Shown piece after piece: positions 3,270-64,000 of a stretch of DNA of 64,000 bases. Source of the DNA: Natrinema salsiterrestre (GTDB lineage: Archaea; Halobacteriota; Halobacteria; Halobacteriales; Natrialbaceae); contig NZ_JAMQOT010000005.1 of NCBI RefSeq assembly GCF_029502005.1, positions 186,001-250,000 of the forward strand, read 5' to 3'. Made by a program: the position numbers and the translations under genes. Position 1 is the first letter of the stretch, and each line of letters begins with the position of its first letter. Below the pieces are notes generated by a model that worked only from the letters and a program-made list of their open reading frames with translations, ran no database searches and was not told the DNA's origin.

Positions 3270-4268
3270 ATGAACAGAACAATACAGACTGCAGTCGTCG
3301 CATTCCTGGCGCTAGTGGTAGCGGTGGGAATGACGATGCCGGCGGCCGCCCAGGACGACGGCGTCGACATCGAAAACGACGACTTCGACATCGAATTCGA
3401 CGGTGACACCGCCGACATCGAGTACGACGACCTCGAACTCGAGACCGAGGACGACCGCGACGTGGTCGACCTGGAGGTCGAGGACACCGAGATCGAACAG
3501 GACGGTAGCAACTCGGCGGTCGAAGCCGGTGATACCGACTTCGAGGGCGAGGAGGGCGGTGACGTCGTCGACCTCGAGGCCGCCGATTCCGAGATCGAAC
3601 GGGACGGCGACGACGCCGAAATCGAGAGCGACGAGATCGACTACGAGAGCGAAAGCGCCGGTGAGGTCGTCGACCTCGAAGCCGCCGATTCCGAGATCGA
3701 ACAGGATAGCGGTGATATCGAGGTCGAAGACGACGTCCTCGACGTCGAAGCAGACGGCACCGGGACCGACGACGTCGACATCGAAACCGACGGCGCCGGT
3801 GGAGTCGACCTCGACCTCGCCGACGACGAAACCGAACTCGAGACCGACGATCGCGAACTCGAGTTCGACGACGAGAACAATCTCGAGGTTCAGAGCGAGG
3901 ACGTCGACTTCGAGAACGACGAGTTCGGCACCGAACTCGTGACCAGCGACGCCGAAATCGAACATGCGGAAGGCGAACTCGAGGCGTTGACTAACGACGT
4001 CGAGTTCGACCAAGACGAGTTGGAAACCGAAGCGCTGACCACCGACGCTGACATCGAACAGAGCGAAGACGGACTCGAAGCGTTGACGAACGCCGTCGAC
4101 TTCGAGAACGATGACAGCGAGCTGGAGGTCGACGACAGCAACGTCGTCATCGAACTCGACGACGAGACCCTCGAAATCGAGAACGACCTCGATATCGAGA
4201 CCGACGGTGAAGACGTCGAAGTCGAGGACAGCAACGGTGGAAACGACGGGGACGACGGAGATGACTGA
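3270..4268 (+). CDS. Secreted hyper-acidic repeat protein 1
   Basis: The start at 3270 gives MNRTIQ followed by a hydrophobic core and a PAAAQ signal-peptidase site; upstream residues do not look like protein. The mature part (about 305 residues) consists of consecutive 7-11-residue units in which hydrophobic and acidic residues alternate, for example VDIENDD, FDIEFDG and LELETEDD. It ends in NGGNDGDDGDD. Lysine is essentially absent and arginine rare. Alternation of this kind suggests short beta-strands with one acidic face, perhaps a beta-solenoid. There is no anchor or catalytic motif, and no GGxGxD calcium nonapeptide of the RTX type. Its signal region, first repeats and last 60 or so bases are nearly identical to the next gene. 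Function unknown; an extracellular polyanion or cation-binding matrix role is only inference. Confidence 0.85.
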   Translation: MNRTIQTAVVAFLALVVAVGMTMPAAAQDDGVDIENDDFDIEFDGDTADIEYDDLELETEDDRDVVDLEVEDTEIEQDGSNSAVEAGDTDFEGEEGGDVVDLEAADSEIERDGDDAEIESDEIDYESESAGEVVDLEAADSEIEQDSGDIEVEDDVLDVEADGTGTDDVDIETDGAGGVDLDLADDETELETDDRELEFDDENNLEVQSEDVDFENDEFGTELVTSDAEIEHAEGELEALTNDVEFDQDELETEALTTDADIEQSEDGLEALTNAVDFENDDSELEVDDSNVVIELDDETLEIENDLDIETDGEDVEVEDSNGGNDGDDGDD

Positions 4269-4533
4269 CTAGCCGCGACCGGTTAGTCCATTTTTCGCGT
4301 TATTGACGACCCGACCCAGCGACCGGTAGCCGCTGGTCCGCCGACGACCCACGGGTTCAGCGGATTTCGATCGCGTGGCCACGCGGTAGTTTACCGACCA
4401 CGCAGTTATGTACTAACCGTGTTTCAACCTACTAACGTACCCGTTGGCTTGAACTTATATGGTCGACAATCGTATTTATTCGTAGTCACAGTTTGCCACG
4501 CTCCCTGTGCAAAGACGCTGTGATGACAATCCG

Positions 4534-5535
4534 ATGAAGAAAACAATACAGACAGTGTTTGTCGTAATCTTGATATTCGCGGTGGCAGTGGGGATGACGA
4601 TGCCGGCGGCCGCCCAGGACGACGGCGTCGACGTCGAGGGCGACGACTTCGAGATCGAATTCGACGGGGACGCTGCAGATCTCGAGTACGACGACCTCGA
4701 GCTCGAGACCGAGGACGACCGCGACGTGGTCGACCTGGAGGTCGAGGACACCGAGATCGAACGGGACGGTGACACCGTCGAGGTCGCGGCGGACGACACT
4801 GACGTCGAGAGCGAGGACGACGGGACTGTCATCGATCTCGACGCCGCCGAGACCGAGATCGAGCGGGACGATGACGATACCGAGATCGAGGTCGACGATA
4901 CCGACTTCGAGAGCAACGGCGACGTCGTCGACCTCGAGGCCGGCGATTCCGTGATCGAACAGGACGACGGTGAAATCGAAGTCGAGGACGACGTGATCGA
5001 CGTCGAAGCTGACGGATCCGGTGATCTCGACATCGAGACCGACGGCGCCGGATCGGTCGCGCTCGATCTCGGCGACGGTGAGATCGACCTCGAGACCGAT
5101 GACCGCGAGGTCGAGCTCGATGACGACGAGCTCGAGGCCGAACTCAACGATATCGACTTCGAAAACGACGCCTTCGGTGTCGAAGCGCTGACCGGCGACG
5201 CCGATATCGAATTCGACGAGGACGACCTCGAGGTGCTGACGAGCGACGTCGACTTCGAGAACGACGAACTCGAAACCGAGGCAGTGACCAGCGACGCCGA
5301 CATCGAACTCGACGAGGACGACATCGAGGTGCTGACGAGCGACGTCGACTTCGAGAACGACGACCGCGAACTGGAAGTCGACGATGGCAACGTCGACATC
5401 GAACTCGACGACGAAACCCTCGAAGTCGAGAACGACCTCGATATCGAGACCGACGGCGAAGACGTCGAAGTCGAGGACAGCAACGGCGGAAACGACGGAG
5501 ACGACGGGGACGACGGAAACGGCGATGACAACTAA
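4534..5535 (+). CDS. Secreted hyper-acidic repeat protein 2
   Basis: This 333-residue product is the closest paralogue of the preceding gene. ATG at 4534 gives MKKTIQTVFVV, a hydrophobic core and MPAAAQ, then DDGVDVEGDDF. Long stretches are nearly identical in DNA to gene 1 (4595-4629 with 3331-3365; about 4687-4763 with 3423-3498; about 5434-5500 with 4189-4250), while the middle differs in repeat order. That fits recent tandem duplication with repeat shuffling or gene conversion. Units such as VLTSDVDFEND occur twice in the C-terminal third. No membrane anchor. A TATA-like TTATAT at 4455 and a second AT-rich box near 4475 lie upstream. Expected to be exported by Sec; function unknown. Confidence 0.85.
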   Translation: MKKTIQTVFVVILIFAVAVGMTMPAAAQDDGVDVEGDDFEIEFDGDAADLEYDDLELETEDDRDVVDLEVEDTEIERDGDTVEVAADDTDVESEDDGTVIDLDAAETEIERDDDDTEIEVDDTDFESNGDVVDLEAGDSVIEQDDGEIEVEDDVIDVEADGSGDLDIETDGAGSVALDLGDGEIDLETDDREVELDDDELEAELNDIDFENDAFGVEALTGDADIEFDEDDLEVLTSDVDFENDELETEAVTSDADIELDEDDIEVLTSDVDFENDDRELEVDDGNVDIELDDETLEVENDLDIETDGEDVEVEDSNGGNDGDDGDDGNGDDN

Positions 5536-5914
5536 CTAGCCGTCCCGTCAGTCCAGTTCCGTTTTTTGAATGGATACGACGACTGGAACGTGATTCGCGA
5601 GCGGGTGCGACCTCGCCGTCGAAACGTATTCGCGAGCGGGTACGGTTCTGCCGCGCGAGATCGTCACTAGGGCGCGGTACCCCTGCTATCGAATCGCCCC
5701 GCTCGGTCGGTATCGGTGGATTCTCTTGCCGATCGTCCGGTCGTTGCCGCCCAGTTCGCGGAACTCCGTTCGACGGGTCGGACCTGACCGGTCGTCGTCC
5801 GCTCACTCGTGATCGGTGTCAGGTCTCCGCGACCGATCAGCTATCGTGGCAGTTCACATCCCATTCCCGTGGCGAGAATTATGGTGCTCACCCCCATGCG
5901 AGAGAATACCACAT
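5536..5914. other. Intergenic, no gene recognised
   Basis: This 379-base gap between acidic-repeat genes 2 and 3 shows no convincing reading frame. A short direct repeat (ATTCGCGAGCGGGT at about 5593 and 5630) is the only structure noticed. It presumably holds the promoter of gene 3, but no clear TATA box at leaderless spacing is visible. Confidence 0.5.
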
Positions 5915-6571
5915 ATGACGAGACGGACTGCATTCGTCGCGCTCCTCGCGCTGGCCGTGGTGGCCGGTCCGGCGATGCCGACGGCCGCTCAGGAGGGCGA
6001 TCTCGATATCGAGTTCGACGGTGACGCAGCGGGCGTCGAGTACGACGATCCGGATTTGGAGACCGAGAACGACTCCGAGGAGATCGATCTCGAGATCGGA
6101 GACTCCGAAATCGAACGGCGCGGCGAGGACGTCGACATCGAGGTCGGCGACACTGACTTCGAACACACCGAAAACGGAGCGGTCGACCTCGAGACGGGGA
6201 GCATCGACATCGAACAGAACGGCGACGCCGTCAGGGTCGAAGACGACATGATCGATTTCGAACGACACAGCGACGGCAGCGTCGACCTCGAGACGGACGG
6301 TGCGGGACCGGTCGACGTCGACACCGACGACGGGAGCATCGAGATCGAGACCGACAACCACGATATCGAACTCGACGACGGCGAACTCGAGGTCACGACT
6401 GACGAGGTCGACTTCGAGAACGACGCGTTCGGGATCGACGTGGTGACCGACGACGTCGACATCGAATTCGATCACGAACTCGAGGTCACGACCGCCGACG
6501 TCGATGTCGAACTCGACGGCCGGGAGCTTGAGGTCGAAACGAGCGGTCAGGACATCGGCGCCGACGGCTGA
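5915..6571 (+). CDS. Secreted hyper-acidic repeat protein 3
   Basis: At 218 residues this is the shortest tandem copy. The start at 5915 gives MTRRTAFVALLALAVVAG, then MPTAAQ and EGDLDIEFDG; the first mature repeat matches FDIEFDG of gene 1. Repeats alternate hydrophobic and acidic residues throughout, with a few histidines (HTEN, ERHSDG, DNHDIE) not seen in copies 1 and 2. It lacks the NGGNDGDDGDD tail and ends in DIGADG. Sec export is likely; there is no anchor. Codon use is the same GAC/GAG/GTC/CTC-dominated style as its neighbours. Confidence 0.8.
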   Translation: MTRRTAFVALLALAVVAGPAMPTAAQEGDLDIEFDGDAAGVEYDDPDLETENDSEEIDLEIGDSEIERRGEDVDIEVGDTDFEHTENGAVDLETGSIDIEQNGDAVRVEDDMIDFERHSDGSVDLETDGAGPVDVDTDDGSIEIETDNHDIELDDGELEVTTDEVDFENDAFGIDVVTDDVDIEFDHELEVTTADVDVELDGRELEVETSGQDIGADG

Positions 6572-6760
6572 TAGCCGGGTACGGTCGCTCGATTTCTGCC
6601 GAGCGGATACCCTCGACGTAACGTCCCTTCGGAGTAGTTACGATGTTACCATACGTCCATACAGTGACTAGTTAGTTACCTTACCTTTATTCACACGCGC
6701 CGCCTAGGAGAGCACGTTACCGCCACGTACGGCCACACCGCGGTATGTACAGAGGAAAGA

Positions 6761-7567
6761 ATGAAACTAATACGAATATTGATAGTAATCGGACTCGTCT
6801 TCGTCGTGATCGCCGGATCCGGACTCCCAGCGACAGCACAGGAGGACGTCGACATCGAGAGCGAGGACGTCGACGTCGAACACGCTGCCGATCGGGCCGA
6901 GGTCGAGAGCGACGACGTCGACTACGAGCGTGACGCCGACCGCGTCGATGTGGAGAGCGGGGACTACGACATCGAACAGGACGGCGACGCCGTCGACGTC
7001 GAGACCGACGAATTCGAGTACCAGCGGTTCAACGGAACGATGGAACTCGAAACGACGGACGGAAACCTCGAGATCGACAAGCGGTCGTTCGGCGTCGAAA
7101 TCGACTTCTTCGGGGTCGAAATCCAGCAAGTCGGTGACGAACTCGAGGTCGAAGACGACAGTCTCGACTACGACAACGACGGTCGGGAGGGAGACGTCGA
7201 CGTCGATACCGACGACTACGAGATCGAACAGGCGATCAACGACACCGAAGTGAAGTCCGACGCGCTCGAGTACGCGTTGACCGACGACACGTTCGAGTTC
7301 GAGACGACTCGAGGAGCGGATATCGACGTCGAAGTGACGGGCGACAACGACGTCGATATCGAGGTCAACGGCCAGGACCTCGAGCAGGTCGACGACGAAC
7401 TCGACCTCGAGAGCGACGAGATCGACTTCGAGAACGGGGACGGTCGCACGGAGTTCGAAACGGGCGACTACGACATCGAACAGGACGATACCGATCTCGA
7501 GGTCGAAGACGGGACCCTCGACATCGAAAGCGACGGTGAGGACGTCGAGGTCGAAGGCGACGGCTGA
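6761..7567 (+). CDS. Secreted hyper-acidic repeat protein 4
   Basis: The 268-residue product starts MKLIRILIVIGLVFVVIAG with a LPATAQ cleavage site, then EDVDIESEDVDVEH. It is the most divergent of the tandem set. In addition to the alternating units it contains more aromatic and non-acidic segments (YQRFNGTMELETTDG, RSFGVEIDFFGVEIQ) and a partial internal duplication ending in YDIEQ (YDIEQDGDAVDVETDE versus YDIEQDDTDLEVEDG). It ends DGEDVEVEGDG, close to the ends of copies 1 and 2. A CTTTATT TATA-like box near 6685 lies about 75 bases upstream, a leader length similar to copies 1 and 2. Function unknown. Confidence 0.8.
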   Translation: MKLIRILIVIGLVFVVIAGSGLPATAQEDVDIESEDVDVEHAADRAEVESDDVDYERDADRVDVESGDYDIEQDGDAVDVETDEFEYQRFNGTMELETTDGNLEIDKRSFGVEIDFFGVEIQQVGDELEVEDDSLDYDNDGREGDVDVDTDDYEIEQAINDTEVKSDALEYALTDDTFEFETTRGADIDVEVTGDNDVDIEVNGQDLEQVDDELDLESDEIDFENGDGRTEFETGDYDIEQDDTDLEVEDGTLDIESDGEDVEVEGDG

Positions 7568-7666
7568 AATCGACACCGAGTCGTGATCGCGGTTTCCCCC
7601 GGTCACCGCTCGCGCGAGTGCGAACCGCTCGTCGAACGAGTTGCGGTCGACAGCTGCTACGAACCA

Positions 7667-8575
7667 ATGAGTAAGATACCCAGACGAACGATACTGAAAC
7701 AGGCCGGAGTGACGGCAACTATCGTTGGCGGCATCGGCATCGCGGGAGCGAACCCGGCAATTCAGGAGGACGACGCGGTCGACGTTCTCGAGGAGATCAG
7801 AGACGCGCTGGTGGATCTCGATGACGAAGTCGAAAGCATAGCCGAAACCCTCGAAGAGGTCGTCGACGAGGGCGAGGATACCGACGATGACGAAGACGGA
7901 GTGAATGGCCCGGATTTCGACGGTCTCGACGACGGCTCCGACGGCGGAAACGGGATCGACGGTCCCGACTTCGACGGCGGCAACGACGATGACGACGAGG
8001 AAACTGACGAAACACCCGACCTCGAGGACATCGATGACCTCACGATCGACGGTATTTCGATCGGCGACGCGGAATCGATCGAGGATCTGAACGAATCCGC
8101 TCTGGAGGGATTCGAGGGAACGATCCTGATCGACGGCGTTCCGATCGACGTCGACGACGAGAGCGACAACGGAAGCGACGAAGACGACGGGGATGAGAGC
8201 AACGGAGACGAGGATGACGATGACGACGATGATCTCCTCGAGGACGTCGAAGAAAGCATCGAGGAGGCGGAAGGGTTCCTCGAAGATGCGGAAGACGCCC
8301 TCGACGACGGGGAGGACGCCCTCGACGACCTCGATACCGACGATCAGGAGACCGTCGAGGAGGAAATCGAGGAGACGGCGGAGTTGCTGGACGAAACCGA
8401 AGGCGACCTCGCCGACGCTGAAGACGAACTCGATGACGACGCAGACAGCGCCCTCGAGACGGTCGACGGAATCGACGAGAATCTCGACGATCGAATCGAA
8501 GAACTGGAAGCCGTCGTGGAAGACCTCGAGGAGGACGAGGAAGACGACGCGGAGGACGGAGAGGACGAATCGTAA
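7667..8575 (+). CDS. Acidic coiled-coil protein with Tat-like signal
   Basis: The start at 7667 gives MSKIPRRTILKQAGVTATIVGG, a twin-arginine motif plus hydrophobic region, so export by Tat is likely (302 residues). The mature protein has a short helical segment (about residues 30-65), a D/G/S-rich flexible section, a small folded-looking patch (ISIGDAESIEDL, about 125-160), then an acidic tract. A long run of acidic heptads with E/D, A and L follows, at about 190-295, predicted to form coiled coil. It lacks the alternating beta units of the four preceding genes but shares their orientation and extreme acidity, so it may be a partner. No known family recognised. Confidence 0.75.
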   Translation: MSKIPRRTILKQAGVTATIVGGIGIAGANPAIQEDDAVDVLEEIRDALVDLDDEVESIAETLEEVVDEGEDTDDDEDGVNGPDFDGLDDGSDGGNGIDGPDFDGGNDDDDEETDETPDLEDIDDLTIDGISIGDAESIEDLNESALEGFEGTILIDGVPIDVDDESDNGSDEDDGDESNGDEDDDDDDDLLEDVEESIEEAEGFLEDAEDALDDGEDALDDLDTDDQETVEEEIEETAELLDETEGDLADAEDELDDDADSALETVDGIDENLDDRIEELEAVVEDLEEDEEDDAEDGEDES

Positions 8576-31498: not shown

Positions 31499-34400
31499 AT
31501 GGTTGATGAGAAATCACACCAAACATTGAAAACGTACGGGCGACGCGGGGTACTCGGCGGCATGGCGTCGCTGCTCGCCGCGTCGGCCTATTCGCTGAAC
31601 GTATCCGCGGAGGCCGCATCGCCGGTCTGGGAGGGTGACGATTCGCTGACCCGAGTCGTCCCCTCGCCCGACGGGCGGGTGCTGGTAATCATCGACGTCG
31701 AGGACGGCACCCCGACGTACAGCGTGCGGTTCGACGGGCGAACCGTCGTCGACTCGTCGCGTATCGGGTTCGAGTTCCAGAATCAGCCCGCCTTCGGCGT
31801 CGGCAGCGACGCGGCCGATCTCGAGGTCACGGGCAGCGAGTGGGACCGGGTCGACAGCACCTGGGAACCGGTCTGGGATCAGTACGACGAGATCGAGGAA
31901 CGGTATACGGAACTCCGGATCGGCCTCGAGGAGACCGAGGGACCGGGCCGGGGCGGCACCCTCGAGATCCGGGTCTTCGAGGACGGGTTCGGGTTCCGGT
32001 TCCTCTTCGACGAGCGCTTCGGTGACGAGTTCGTCATCACCTCGGAGCGAACGGAGTACTCCTTCGCGGGCGATTACGACTCGTGGTGGGTGCCCGGCGA
32101 TTACAACAGCTTCGAGTACGAGTACGAAGCGACACCCCTCAGCGAAATCGGCTCGACGCTCGAGTCGGAATTCGGCGGTTCGTTCGACGGCGTCCACACG
32201 CCGATGACGATGCGGACCGACGACGACCACTACGTCAGCGTCCACGAGGCGAACCTCGACGACTACGCGTCGCTGGCGATCACACCGCAGGCGGACGGCT
32301 CCACCGATTTCGAGGCGGCGCTGGCCCCGCTTCCGGACGGCACAAAGGTGTCCGCGTCCGCGCCCCACGTCACTCCGTGGCGGACGATCCAGCTCGGCAG
32401 GCGGCCGGGCGACCTCATCGAGTCGAACCTCATCGTCAACCTCAACGAGGACTACAGCGACGACGTGTTCACGCGGGGCACCGACTGGATCGAGCCCCAG
32501 AAGTTCATCGGGGTCTGGTGGCTGATGATCACCGGCCGCGCAGACTGGGAGTACCAGGGTCCCCAGACCGGCAACCACGGCGCACAGACCGGCCGCGCGA
32601 AGCAGTACATGGACTTCGCCAGCGAGCACGACATTCCCGGAGTCCTCGTCGAGGGCTGGAACCAGGGCTGGTCGAGCTACCCGGGCGACGGCAGCGAGTT
32701 CAGCTTCACCGAGTCGTATCCCGACTTCGATCTCGAGGGCGTCACCGACTACGGCTCGGGCCTCGAGCCGGCGACGCAGATGACGATGCACAACGAGACG
32801 GCGGGGGACTTCCGGAACTACGAGTCCCAGCTCGACGAGGCGTTCGGGCTGTACGACGACCTCGGTATTCGGACGATCAAGAACGGATACGTCTCCGACA
32901 GCGGTGATCTCTCCGGGGAGGGATACAGCCACCACAATCAGGTGCTGGTCAACCACCACACGCTGGTCGCGGAGACGGCGGCGGCCAACCGGCAGCTGCT
33001 CGACGTACACGAGCCGATTCACCCGACCGGTCGCCGGCGAACGTACCCCAACCTGATGACCCGCGAGGGCGTGAAAGGCCAGGAGTACGACGCGTTCGGA
33101 AACGTCAGTCCGGACCACCACGTCACGTTCCCGTTCACGCGCATGCTCGGCGGCCCAGTCGAGTACACGCCGGGGATCTTCGACATGGAGTCGGGCTCGG
33201 GCGGCATCGAGACGACGCGAGCGAAACAGCTCGCGATGTACCCGACCTACTTCAGCGGCCTCCAGATGGTCGCGGACCTGCCGAGTTCCTATCTGGCCGA
33301 CCAGCCCGCCACGCTGGGCGTCGGCGAGGTCGCGCAAGCCCAGCACGCCGACCTCGACGGGTTCGTCACCCAGTCGGAGTGGGCCAACGCGCAGGGCGAG
33401 GCGTACGTTCCCTTCGACGCCAACAGCGTCGACAGCGGGTCGACGGCCACCTGGACGCTCGAAGACGCCCCCGCCGGCGAGTACGACGTCCACCTCCGAG
33501 CGGCCAACTACGAAGCCGACAACGGGCTCGGCTTCGAGGTCGACGCGACCGCCACGCTTCAGGTCGACGGGGAACCGGTCGAACAGCTCTCGATCCCCGG
33601 AACCGACTACTGGGACGACTGGACCGCGACGGCGACGACGGTTTCGCTCGAGGACGGCGATACCGAGCTCTCCCTCGCGCTCACGGACGAGGACACCGGC
33701 GGCTTCAACCTCGATGCGATCGCCGTCACGGAGACCGGCGCGCCGATGCCGGAACCCGACGAGCCGCCGATCACCGGGCCGACCGTCCCCGCGTTCCAGT
33801 TCGTCGAAGACGTCCCGGCAGCGGGCTGGGACGACACGCGCGTTCTGGATTCGTCGATCGGCGACTACATGATCACCGCCCGCCAGAAGGGCGACGAGTG
33901 GTACGTCGGTGCGATGACCGACGAGAACGGCCGCGCGCTCGAAATCCCGCTCGACTTCCTCGATTCCGACTCCGGTCACTGGTGGGAGGACGGCGACCAC
34001 GGCTGGTGGGACGATGACGACGACCGCGGCTGGTGGGAGGACGACGATCACGACTGGGGAGACGACGACGGCCCCGGTTGGTGGGACGACGATGGCCACG
34101 GCTGGGGAGACGATGACGACGAGGGCCACGGCTGGGGCCGCGGCAACGGTCACCGGAAAGAACGCGCTCGTGGCCAACGAAACGGACGCGGGGAGCATCG
34201 AGGCCGTGGACACGGGAACGACAAGTACGTCGCGGAGATCTACTCCGACGGCGTCGATGCCGACTACGACGGCAACCTCGAGGACGTCCGCATCGACGAG
34301 GCAATCGTCGACGCATCCACGACGCTACTGGCCTCGATGGTCGGCTCCGGCGGCACCGCCGTTCGGCTCCGTCCGGCGACGGAGGAGGACCTCGAGCAAC

Positions 34401-35401
34401 TCCCGAATTACGAACGGCCCACCCAGGAGGTCGACGTCTCGATCGACGACGAGACCTTCGTGCGGGAGCCGTTCGTTTCGGCGACCGGCTCCAACAGCGG
34501 CGACTACATCGGCGGGACGACCGTCGAGCTCGTCGTCGACAGTGACGTCCGCAGCCTCGAAAACGTCCGGTTCGGTCCGGGCGCGACCGACGAGTCGTTC
34601 GGGTTCGGAACGACGATCGACACCGCAGGTACCTACGACGTGACCGTCCGGACGATCGACGGCGAACCCCTCGCCAGCCGAACCGTGACGGTGACGCCGC
34701 CGGAGACCGTCGCATCGTTCGCCGACTCGAGCGGCGACGATTACGGCCCCGGGGAGTACACGTACCCGACCGCCGGCGCGTTCGAGGACGGCGTCTTCGA
34801 CCTCCGGTCGTTCGAGGTCACGCGAACCTCGAGCACCGTCCAGTTCTCCTTCGCGGTCGAGACGCTGAACAACGCCTTCGGAAGCGATCGCGGCTTCTCG
34901 CCGCACATGTTCGTCCTGTGGCTCCGCGATCCGGCCGCAGACGGCGGGGGTACGACCGAGGTCGGCGACCTCGGACTGGCTGCGGAGTTCGAGTCGGATT
35001 GGCACTACCGCCTCGAGGTCAGCGGCTTCACGAAGAGCGCGGTCGACGCGGGCGGGAATCCGCTGACCGACGCCGATGGCGACGAAATCAGCGTTCGGGA
35101 CGACGTAGACACGGAGGCGAACACCGTAGCGATCTCGGTCGATCGGGCCGCGTTCGGCGGAACCGATATCTCGGACCTGGAAGTCGTGGCGATGGTCCAG
35201 TCGGAGGACCGCGGGACGCTCCGTCCCGTCGCCGAGGACGCCGCGGACTACGTGTTCGGCGGTGCCATCCCCGGCGCGGCCGAGAACGCGCCGCGCATCA
35301 TGGACATGGTGACGCCGGACGACACCAGTCAAGCCGACGCGCTGGCCTACTCGGCCGACCAACCGGCGGTGCTGCCGTTCGTCCCGCTGGGCGACGGCTG
35401 A
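31499..35401 (+). CDS. Secreted GH97 alpha-glucosidase-like multidomain protein
   Basis: This 1300-residue protein begins with a twin-arginine signal (KTYGRRGVLGGMASLLAAS). A GH97 N-domain (about 45-310) and catalytic barrel (about 330-610) follow. Glutamates 385 (VEGWNQGW), 433 (HNETAG), 505 (VHEPI) and 529 (GQEYDAF) line up with the catalytic and calcium-binding glutamates of SusB, suggesting an inverting alpha-glucosidase. A CBM6/35-like beta-sandwich (about 620-750) is inserted before the GH97 C-domain (about 765-960). That C-domain is itself interrupted by a W/D/G/H-rich tract (about 823-908). An Ig-like stretch and a glucodextranase-type C-terminal domain (about 1078-1295) complete it. 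No sugar transporter or regulator sits next to it. It is expected to cleave alpha-glucans outside the cell. Confidence 0.88.
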   Translation: MVDEKSHQTLKTYGRRGVLGGMASLLAASAYSLNVSAEAASPVWEGDDSLTRVVPSPDGRVLVIIDVEDGTPTYSVRFDGRTVVDSSRIGFEFQNQPAFGVGSDAADLEVTGSEWDRVDSTWEPVWDQYDEIEERYTELRIGLEETEGPGRGGTLEIRVFEDGFGFRFLFDERFGDEFVITSERTEYSFAGDYDSWWVPGDYNSFEYEYEATPLSEIGSTLESEFGGSFDGVHTPMTMRTDDDHYVSVHEANLDDYASLAITPQADGSTDFEAALAPLPDGTKVSASAPHVTPWRTIQLGRRPGDLIESNLIVNLNEDYSDDVFTRGTDWIEPQKFIGVWWLMITGRADWEYQGPQTGNHGAQTGRAKQYMDFASEHDIPGVLVEGWNQGWSSYPGDGSEFSFTESYPDFDLEGVTDYGSGLEPATQMTMHNETAGDFRNYESQLDEAFGLYDDLGIRTIKNGYVSDSGDLSGEGYSHHNQVLVNHHTLVAETAAANRQLLDVHEPIHPTGRRRTYPNLMTREGVKGQEYDAFGNVSPDHHVTFPFTRMLGGPVEYTPGIFDMESGSGGIETTRAKQLAMYPTYFSGLQMVADLPSSYLADQPATLGVGEVAQAQHADLDGFVTQSEWANAQGEAYVPFDANSVDSGSTATWTLEDAPAGEYDVHLRAANYEADNGLGFEVDATATLQVDGEPVEQLSIPGTDYWDDWTATATTVSLEDGDTELSLALTDEDTGGFNLDAIAVTETGAPMPEPDEPPITGPTVPAFQFVEDVPAAGWDDTRVLDSSIGDYMITARQKGDEWYVGAMTDENGRALEIPLDFLDSDSGHWWEDGDHGWWDDDDDRGWWEDDDHDWGDDDGPGWWDDDGHGWGDDDDEGHGWGRGNGHRKERARGQRNGRGEHRGRGHGNDKYVAEIYSDGVDADYDGNLEDVRIDEAIVDASTTLLASMVGSGGTAVRLRPATEEDLEQLPNYERPTQEVDVSIDDETFVREPFVSATGSNSGDYIGGTTVELVVDSDVRSLENVRFGPGATDESFGFGTTIDTAGTYDVTVRTIDGEPLASRTVTVTPPETVASFADSSGDDYGPGEYTYPTAGAFEDGVFDLRSFEVTRTSSTVQFSFAVETLNNAFGSDRGFSPHMFVLWLRDPAADGGGTTEVGDLGLAAEFESDWHYRLEVSGFTKSAVDAGGNPLTDADGDEISVRDDVDTEANTVAISVDRAAFGGTDISDLEVVAMVQSEDRGTLRPVAEDAADYVFGGAIPGAAENAPRIMDMVTPDDTSQADALAYSADQPAVLPFVPLGDG

Positions 35402-62730: not shown

Positions 62731-64000
62731 TTACTCGTCGACCGTCGCGTTCGATTCGTTGTCCGTCTCGTTCTCGAAGCCCTCCTCTTCGATTTCGGTC
62801 TGATTCGCCGTCTCGTTTCCGGCATCGGTCTCGTTGCCCTCACTGTCACCGGCATCGGCTCCGCCATCGCCTTCCTCGGGCGGCGACAGCGACTCACCCT
62901 CACCCGGCGGAACGATCTGCATGACCGCACCGGTGTCGCCTTCGGGGACGCCCGCCTGGTTCGCGAGCACGTAGACGTTGCCGTCGTCGTCCTGTCCGAA
63001 CTGCCGGACGAAGTACGGGAACGAGCCGTCTTCGGTTCCCGCGACCTGAAGTTCTTCCATGTCCCAGAGCTCGTCTCGCGGGACGACCTGTTCCTGACCG
63101 TCACCGTCGGCGGTCGGCATGTCGCCACCGGCCGTCTCGTTGGTAGCGTTGGTTTCGTTAGTCTCGTTCTCGAGGCCTTCCTGTTCGACATCCGGGGCGT
63201 CGGTCGCGTTGGTGGCGTTGGTGTCGTTAGTCTCGTTCACGAAGCCTTCCTGTTCGATTTCCGGGACGTCGGTCGCGTTAGTAGCGTTGGTGGCGTTGGT
63301 TTCGTTGCCGCCGGCGTCCTCGGCCATTTGTCCGCCTCCGCCGTCGGGCTCGGTGGCAGCGAGGAGCCGTCCCTGCGGACTCTGCCGGGCCGGATCAGCC
63401 GTCCAGTCGCCGAAGATGTACTTCCCGTTCAGCTCCTGCACGGCGTCGGCCTCGTAGACGTGACCGCCGACGATCGCGATGCCGACGATTTGCTCCTGAT
63501 ACGTGTGGGGGTACTCGACGATCGGGTCCTGAAGCTCCTGCCCGTCATAGGGCGCTTCGTCCGGGGCCGAGTCGGGACAGTCTTCGGGCGGACTGCCGGG
63601 GTTCTCCGTGCTGAAGCAGTGAGTCCCTTCCTTGACGTTCCAGCCGTAGTTCCCGCCCGACTCGACGATGTCGACTTCTTCGAAGAGGTTCTGTCCCACG
63701 TCGGCGACGAACAGTCGGTCGTCGCTGTCGAACGAGATGCCGAAGGGGTTCCGGAAGCCCCACGCGTAGTGTTCGGGGTATGCCTCCTCGGAATCGGCCA
63801 GCGGGTTGTCGTCCGGAATGCCGTACGGTCGATCGTCGCCCTCGGAATCGACGTCGATCCGCAGGATGCTCCCGAGCAGGTTCTCGCTGACGTCCTGCCC
63901 GTTTCCGCCCGCGTTGTCGTCGTACCAGTCCTCAACGTGGCCCTCCATGTCGTCGTTCGCCCCGCCGCCGTCACCCATGGGGACGTAGAGGTAGCCGTCG
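62731..64000 (-). CDS. Soluble sugar/sorbosone dehydrogenase-like protein, partial
   Basis: The gene runs past the right edge, so the N-terminus is missing; the visible part is about 423 residues. The beta-propeller hallmarks of PQQ-type glucose/sorbosone dehydrogenases are present: YLYVPMGDGGGAND at the cut edge, GSILRIDVDSEGDD, YPEHYAWGFRNPFGISFD, DVGQNLFEEVDIVESGGNYGW and IVGIAIVGGHVYEA. An N-glycosylation-rich repeat (about 63131-63310) is inserted between two propeller segments, and a second sequon-rich tail ends the protein. This suggests a secreted, heavily N-glycosylated oxidase. Signal peptide not visible. Confidence 0.8.
   Translation of the reverse strand, partial: DGYLYVPMGDGGGANDDMEGHVEDWYDDNAGGNGQDVSENLLGSILRIDVDSEGDDRPYGIPDDNPLADSEEAYPEHYAWGFRNPFGISFDSDDRLFVADVGQNLFEEVDIVESGGNYGWNVKEGTHCFSTENPGSPPEDCPDSAPDEAPYDGQELQDPIVEYPHTYQEQIVGIAIVGGHVYEADAVQELNGKYIFGDWTADPARQSPQGRLLAATEPDGGGGQMAEDAGGNETNATNATNATDVPEIEQEGFVNETNDTNATNATDAPDVEQEGLENETNETNATNETAGGDMPTADGDGQEQVVPRDELWDMEELQVAGTEDGSFPYFVRQFGQDDDGNVYVLANQAGVPEGDTGAVMQIVPPGEGESLSPPEEGDGGADAGDSEGNETDAGNETANQTEIEEEGFENETDNESNATVDE
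63131..63310 (-). repeat. Tandem sequon-rich repeat in the sugar dehydrogenase
   Basis: Two copies of a roughly 70-base unit encode EIEQEGFVNETNDTNATNAT-like and DVEQEGLENETNETNATNET-like segments. A third, diverged copy lies at the C-terminus (about 62740-62830; EIEEEGFENETDNESNAT). By hand there are about 18 N-x-S/T sequons in this protein's visible part. In-frame duplication of a glycosylation module is inferred. Confidence 0.55.

Follow-up and report, generated by a model that had tools for sequence, protein, structure and literature searches.

Within the 64,000-nucleotide stretch of Natrinema salsiterrestre DNA analysed here (the window), an uninterrupted open reading frame of 1300 residues (31499–35401, forward strand, as are all features described below), identified by ORF inspection and aligned to haloarchaeal relatives, encodes a secreted GH97 enzyme. 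The gene lies between those for a DHH/OB-fold protein (28.4–30.5 kb) and a MutY-type glycosylase (36.3–37.2 kb), an order common to the Natrinema loci L003, L004, L005 and L008. The protein opens with a putative Tat-type signal (GRRGVLGGMASLLAASAYSLNVSAEA; 31499–31615, cleavage point approximate), read from a twin-arginine N-terminus that is also present in L026. There follow the GH97_N domain (residues 54–317, 31658–32449, Pfam E = 8e-60), the GH97 (beta/alpha)8 barrel (residues 328–604, 32480–33310, Pfam E = 1.8e-83), an inserted CBM35/CBM6-type beta-sandwich (residues ~609–745, 33323–33733), and a GH97_C domain that a tract rich in Trp, Asp, Gly and His splits in two, both in Pfam and in the alignment to PspAG97A. 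The first part of GH97_C spans residues 764–825 (33788–33973; the Pfam match starts at 777) and the second, the third segment of the PspAG97A alignment, residues 909–962 (34223–34384). Strands in the second structure model suggest an Ig-like all-beta linker domain at residues ~975–1068 (34421–34702), and a glucodextranase C-terminal domain (residues 1071–1291, 34709–35371, Pfam E = 4.5e-51) completes the chain. GH97_N, barrel and GH97_C each score above their Pfam cut-offs, as membership of GH97 (CAZy) demands, and a sequence-only reading of the gene as a GH97 enzyme with an inserted carbohydrate-binding module and a glucodextranase C-terminus proved right by Pfam, the PspAG97A alignment and VIA alike. 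The product is a secreted enzyme of a known family, and the tract is a local elaboration of it, not a new kind of enzyme.

The active site is conserved. E206 (codon 32114–32116, within GH97_N) and E385, E433, E505, E523 and E529 (all within the barrel) are invariant across 51 haloarchaeal alignment rows; four of these glutamates (385, 433, 505 and 529) had been recognized from the sequence at the outset, and E206 and E523 are two further active-site residues. By alignment to PspAG97A and SusB, with BtGH97a/SusB residues as the reference for base, acid and calcium glutamates (PMC2670981), E433 is the predicted base (equivalent to SusB Glu439), E529 the predicted acid and E385 a putative sugar-binding residue, while E206, E505, E523 and E529 would ligate calcium as equivalents of SusB Glu 194, 508, 526 and 532; the HE motif containing SusB Glu508 falls at residues 504–505 and does not vary in the 51 rows. 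GH97 requires calcium, and its inverting members have been described as absolutely conserving HHET and K(T/S)GY (PMC2670981). The window protein and every haloarchaeal row listed in the alignment carry HNET around the base (32792–32800, residues 431–434) in place of the bacterial-type HHET, a variant also seen in one of six unexplained outliers of the same study (PMC2670981). The second motif reads KNGY, as in many haloarchaeal rows, with KTGY or KSGY in some relatives. The substitution of HHET by HNET could mean changed activity, but an inverting mechanism is still likely because the aligned catalytic base, E433, is retained. No Asp nucleophile occurs in any listed row of the haloarchaeal GH97 alignment. 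Assignment as a retaining alpha-galactosidase (NCBIfam NF053844) was rejected, with 212 bits against a cut-off of 800 and the Asp nucleophile lacking.

Among enzymes of solved structure, PspAG97A, FjGH97A and SusB are nearest to the window protein. PspAG97A of Pseudoalteromonas sp. K8 (5hq4/5hqc) aligns over GH97_N, barrel and GH97_C (E = 2e-128) with its active-site glutamates kept, but it has neither the CBM insertion nor the glucodextranase C-domain, bridges the site of the tract with a one-residue turn, and carries HHET where the window protein has HNET. FjGH97A of Flavobacterium johnsoniae (8wg0–8wg2), the closest in its catalytic segment, belongs to a Sus-type locus and lacks both the accessory domains and the loop. 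BtGH97a/SusB has base, acid and calcium glutamates in common with the window protein (PMC2670981), yet shows HHET and K(T/S)GY rather than HNET and KNGY. The Arthrobacter glucodextranase 1ug9 (GH15) contains the same C-domain, which there follows a GH15 catalytic domain and here a GH97 one.

Because barrel and C-domain are contiguous in PspAG97A (in the alignment to 5hqc the former ends at residue 540 and the latter starts at 542), the carbohydrate-binding module is a true insertion. Its Pfam CBM_6 match (residues 642–744) stands exactly at the cut-off, and CBM_35 exceeded its own cut-off in L010 only, of five relatives scanned; a 22-sequence profile matches the CBM35-type modules of GH31 6-alpha-glucosyltransferase, cycloalternan-forming enzyme and isomaltodextranase. 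In the second structure model the predicted fold is a CBM35/CBM6 beta-sandwich, superposing on 5f7u at 2.3 Å over 123 residues (VIA Z 15.6), with similar Z scores (~15.6) for 4kwu and 5x7o and 14.3 for the CBM35 4qb1; Foldseek and VIA searches with this model recover cycloisomaltooligosaccharide glucanotransferase, cycloalternan enzyme and 6-alpha-glucosyltransferase at Z 15–16. Glucodextran_C (PF09985, described in Pfam as SLH-like) scores 174 bits against a cut-off of 22, and the C-terminal domain has the fold of 1ug9 (VIA Z 20.3, 3.2 Å over 217 residues), in agreement with the profile match (E = 3.5e-20). Elsewhere in the genome, on contig C20, a GH15–Glucodextran_B–Glucodextran_C–CARDB protein (L002) displays a glucodextranase-type architecture.

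These relationships bear on the substrate. The best PDB match of the barrel segment 32060–33120 (residues 188–540) is 8wg0, titled as the GH97 glucodextranase of F. johnsoniae; FjGH97A is exo-acting with a preference for alpha-1,6 links, and PspAG97A attacks dextran and links of the isomaltose type (PMC10316084). GH97 glucodextranase kin, a binding module of the kind found in alpha-1,6-active enzymes and the glucodextranase C-domain together suggest an alpha-1,6/alpha-1,4 exo-hydrolase, and most likely the enzyme is exo-acting and releases glucose from the non-reducing ends of alpha-1,6- and alpha-1,4-linked glucans, with the CBM35-type module and the C-domain probably holding it to alpha-glucan. 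An alpha-1,6-linked glucan or isomalto-oligosaccharide, beside starch-type links, is a reasonable guess for the substrate. In a salt-lake survey no haloarchaeal isolate used dextran, and amylopectin, starch and glycogen supported the growth of a Natrinema isolate (PMC9726719); these observations argue that the natural substrate is a branched glucan of the starch type and weaken the alpha-1,6 guess. A literature search found no papers characterising haloarchaeal GH97 activity, and one list includes secreted GH97 from the genomes of haloarchaea (PMC13260240).

The GH97 gene stands alone at its locus, yet within an alpha-glucan-using genome. It had been noted at first that no sugar-uptake genes are nearby, in contrast to bacterial GH97 loci. 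The scanned flanking ORFs (~19.5–43.4 kb of the window) indeed contain no transport domain, and none of the eight SBP_bac_1 matches in the genome falls inside the window. However, a TrmB–GH15–MalK-type ATPase–SBP–permease–GH13 cluster, by its gene content a putative maltodextrin-uptake-type island, lies ~41–51 kb upstream on the same contig (~166.4–176.5 kb; L064, C23:166370-176458), ~10–20 kb before the window start, and its GH13 gene is the sole PF00128 match in the genome. The lack of neighbouring sugar genes depends on where the window ends, and the contrast with bacterial loci was overstated. A GH13 alpha-amylase-like gene is found ~6–9 kb from GH97 in five of eight genus relatives, with no copy in the window; the only two that were read (L065, 13205–14551, and L066 of genome G067), roughly 7–9 kb from GH97, both begin with a twin-arginine signal. 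Neighbours differ in other genera, with MFS transporters in L024 and a beta-galactosidase in L010.

The tract itself (residues 826–908) is an in-frame minisatellite followed by an R/G/H tail, matching the position in the C-domain and the composition first read from the sequence. Its W/D/G/H part (residues 826–881, 33974–34141) is built on a tandem repeat at 33979–34120 with a 24-bp period, a 48-bp higher order and 5.8 copies, and the R/G/H/K-rich remainder (residues 882–908, 34142–34222) is like the loops of other Natrinema relatives. Codon shuffling reached the periodicity of the DNA in 3 of 5000 trials, and the amino-acid periodicity was reached in 23 of 20000 shuffles. Eleven tryptophans fall in one 55-residue stretch, by far the richest in the window, where no other exceeds five. 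A mobile or genome-wide repeat was rejected: in this genome the pattern GGNTGGTGGGANGANGANGAN is confined to the tract. Five of 392 genomes of the order contain the pattern; where it matches beyond the GH97 gene, the hit is either an isolated motif or part of a W/D-rich tract in L055 that has no relation to this one. The window holds other repeats, namely a long series of degenerate 21/48/96-bp tandem repeats at 3355–8558, apparently coding for acidic repeats, and a 69-bp tandem repeat (2.5 copies, 87% matches) at 63134–63306.

The site of the tract is variable throughout the haloarchaeal family. In PspAG97A the C-domain strands LDFLDNG and QFEAHIY are joined by ~1 residue in a tight beta-hairpin turn. 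A loop of 16–100 residues (median 36.5) occupies that turn in all 50 locus-derived rows (the relatives plus the window's own copy, with a few species fetched twice), so that more than 40 orthologues carry such loops at the same position of the fold; in L042 and L043 the loop has 16–17 residues. Nowhere else in the protein does length vary as much: the standard deviation is ~11–12 residues on each side of an anchor that happens to fall within the loop, and at most 4.1 elsewhere. Most loops are G/N/K/R/H-rich and neutral or net basic; tryptophan is confined to the window and its relatives L025 and L026, apart from a single residue in L003/L030 (the same sequence). The comparison of orthologues that had been proposed as a check shows a loop in every haloarchaeal relative examined and the W/D form in three genus members alone, the window included. 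L025, an independent assembly that is 96% identical, carries the same tract, and L026, at 82% identity, a shorter version. In a tree built without the loop, the window and L025 are sisters with L026 nearby, and a topology that unites the W/D carriers in one clade survives testing (p-AU 0.163), leaving independent gains of the tract unneeded; the shared strings HDWGDD and HGWGRG favour one origin followed by loss. Two orthologues are broken, by a stop in L038 (genome G053) and across three open frames in L014 (Haladaptatus halobius), each a pseudogene or a sequence error.

Comparison of the window with L025 places 13 gapped codons within the tract and none in the remaining 1213 codons. For the W/D part pN/pS is 0.11/0.40, a ratio of ~0.28 (from few sites), and for the sequence outside it 0.014/0.16, a ratio of 0.09; because the former is below 1, some constraint on W/D composition is possible, and this part may be relaxed yet not wholly free. 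Structure prediction, suggested earlier as a way to see whether the tract forms a surface loop, agrees: the loop replaces the tight beta-turn, and two AlphaFold models render residues 825–906 as coil with pLDDT ~24–33 between confident strands, so the loop is probably disordered in the real protein. The barrel of the first AF2 model, made from a shallow alignment, is unreliable (mean pLDDT 58.5).

Repeat expansion within a permissive loop is the simplest and best-fitting reading of these data. A 24-bp minisatellite would have expanded in frame, and recently, inside a hypervariable glycine-rich loop at the C-domain hairpin turn, a point where repeat growth may be tolerated; the tract would then drift by repeat gain and loss under weak constraint on composition and, lying outside the catalytic machinery, could be functionally dispensable. 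We regard it as probable, taking both parts together, that the product is exported by the Tat route and acts, with calcium, as an inverting exo-alpha-glucosidase of alpha-1,6/alpha-1,4 glucans, similar to glucoamylase or glucodextranase, and that it carries a minisatellite-expanded, tolerated loop. Tandem repeats that yield fast-evolving disordered stretches in archaeal proteins are likewise described for Borgs (PMC9879509), as against the single haloarchaeal chromosomal locus and degenerate 24-bp units seen here.

The sequence-only reading had instead proposed that the tract may bind metals, polysaccharide or the S-layer. With the W/D form in three genus members only, tryptophan nearly absent from other loops and most of these neutral or basic, such a role finds no support as a family property, though one private to the W/D form is conceivable. 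In one version of the proposal, the tract works in this lineage as an element that binds carbohydrate or attaches to a surface: regularly spaced Trp pairs would stack on glucan, Asp would keep the chain soluble in brine, and avidity would be set by the number of repeats. The WW/WG spacing is regular (every 8–9 residues), the repeat-core tryptophans are retained between the window and L025, the tract sits in an extracellular glucanase beside other binding modules, and a WWEDDSPWWEDDDDD tract seems to have arisen separately in a secreted CARDB-like haloarchaeal protein (L055); yet the tract is missing from almost all orthologues, other Natrinema included, is disordered in the models and changes length fast, and shared descent would by itself preserve TGG codons over so short a time, which leaves such an element unlikely. 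The tract of L055, an unrelated protein, reads WWDDDDD/SPWWEDDSPWWEDDDDD and appears to be a W/D-rich stretch of independent origin. Somewhat more doubtful still is the broader proposal that the loop serves as a repeat-tuned extracellular binding bristle, in which minisatellite change rewrites charge and aromatic content and the Natrinema W/D form adds a glucan- or surface-binding arm; if true, a dextran-active enzyme would have gained a new binding arm. Binding of Ca, Ni or Zn through Asp, Glu and His of a low-complexity region is improbable: in prokaryotes, low-complexity regions rich in His and Asp are over-represented among metal-binding proteins (PMC6821194) and GH97 needs calcium, as noted above (PMC2670981), but the predicted ligands of the catalytic calcium are four conserved glutamates distant from the tract in sequence, and orthologue loops are mostly neutral or basic. 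Finally, although repeats are easily miscounted in draft assemblies and this genome is in 27 contigs, a sequencing or assembly artefact or a frameshift product, the origin that the sequence-only reading had said would undo its case, is excluded as to the tract's existence and scarcely credible overall, given units that are multiples of three, a C-domain that resumes in frame, the same tract in L025 and a related shorter one in L026; any remaining error could concern no more than the precise number of copies.

Two points are of wider interest. Haloarchaeal enzymes for branched and alpha-1,6-linked glucans are poorly known (PMC9726719), and because HNET is conserved among them and their accessory modules are of the alpha-1,6 type, haloarchaeal GH97 proteins may be such exo-acting enzymes. 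The orthologues, in turn, form a natural series of loop lengths that may reveal how a secreted enzyme in brine is affected by disordered inserts.
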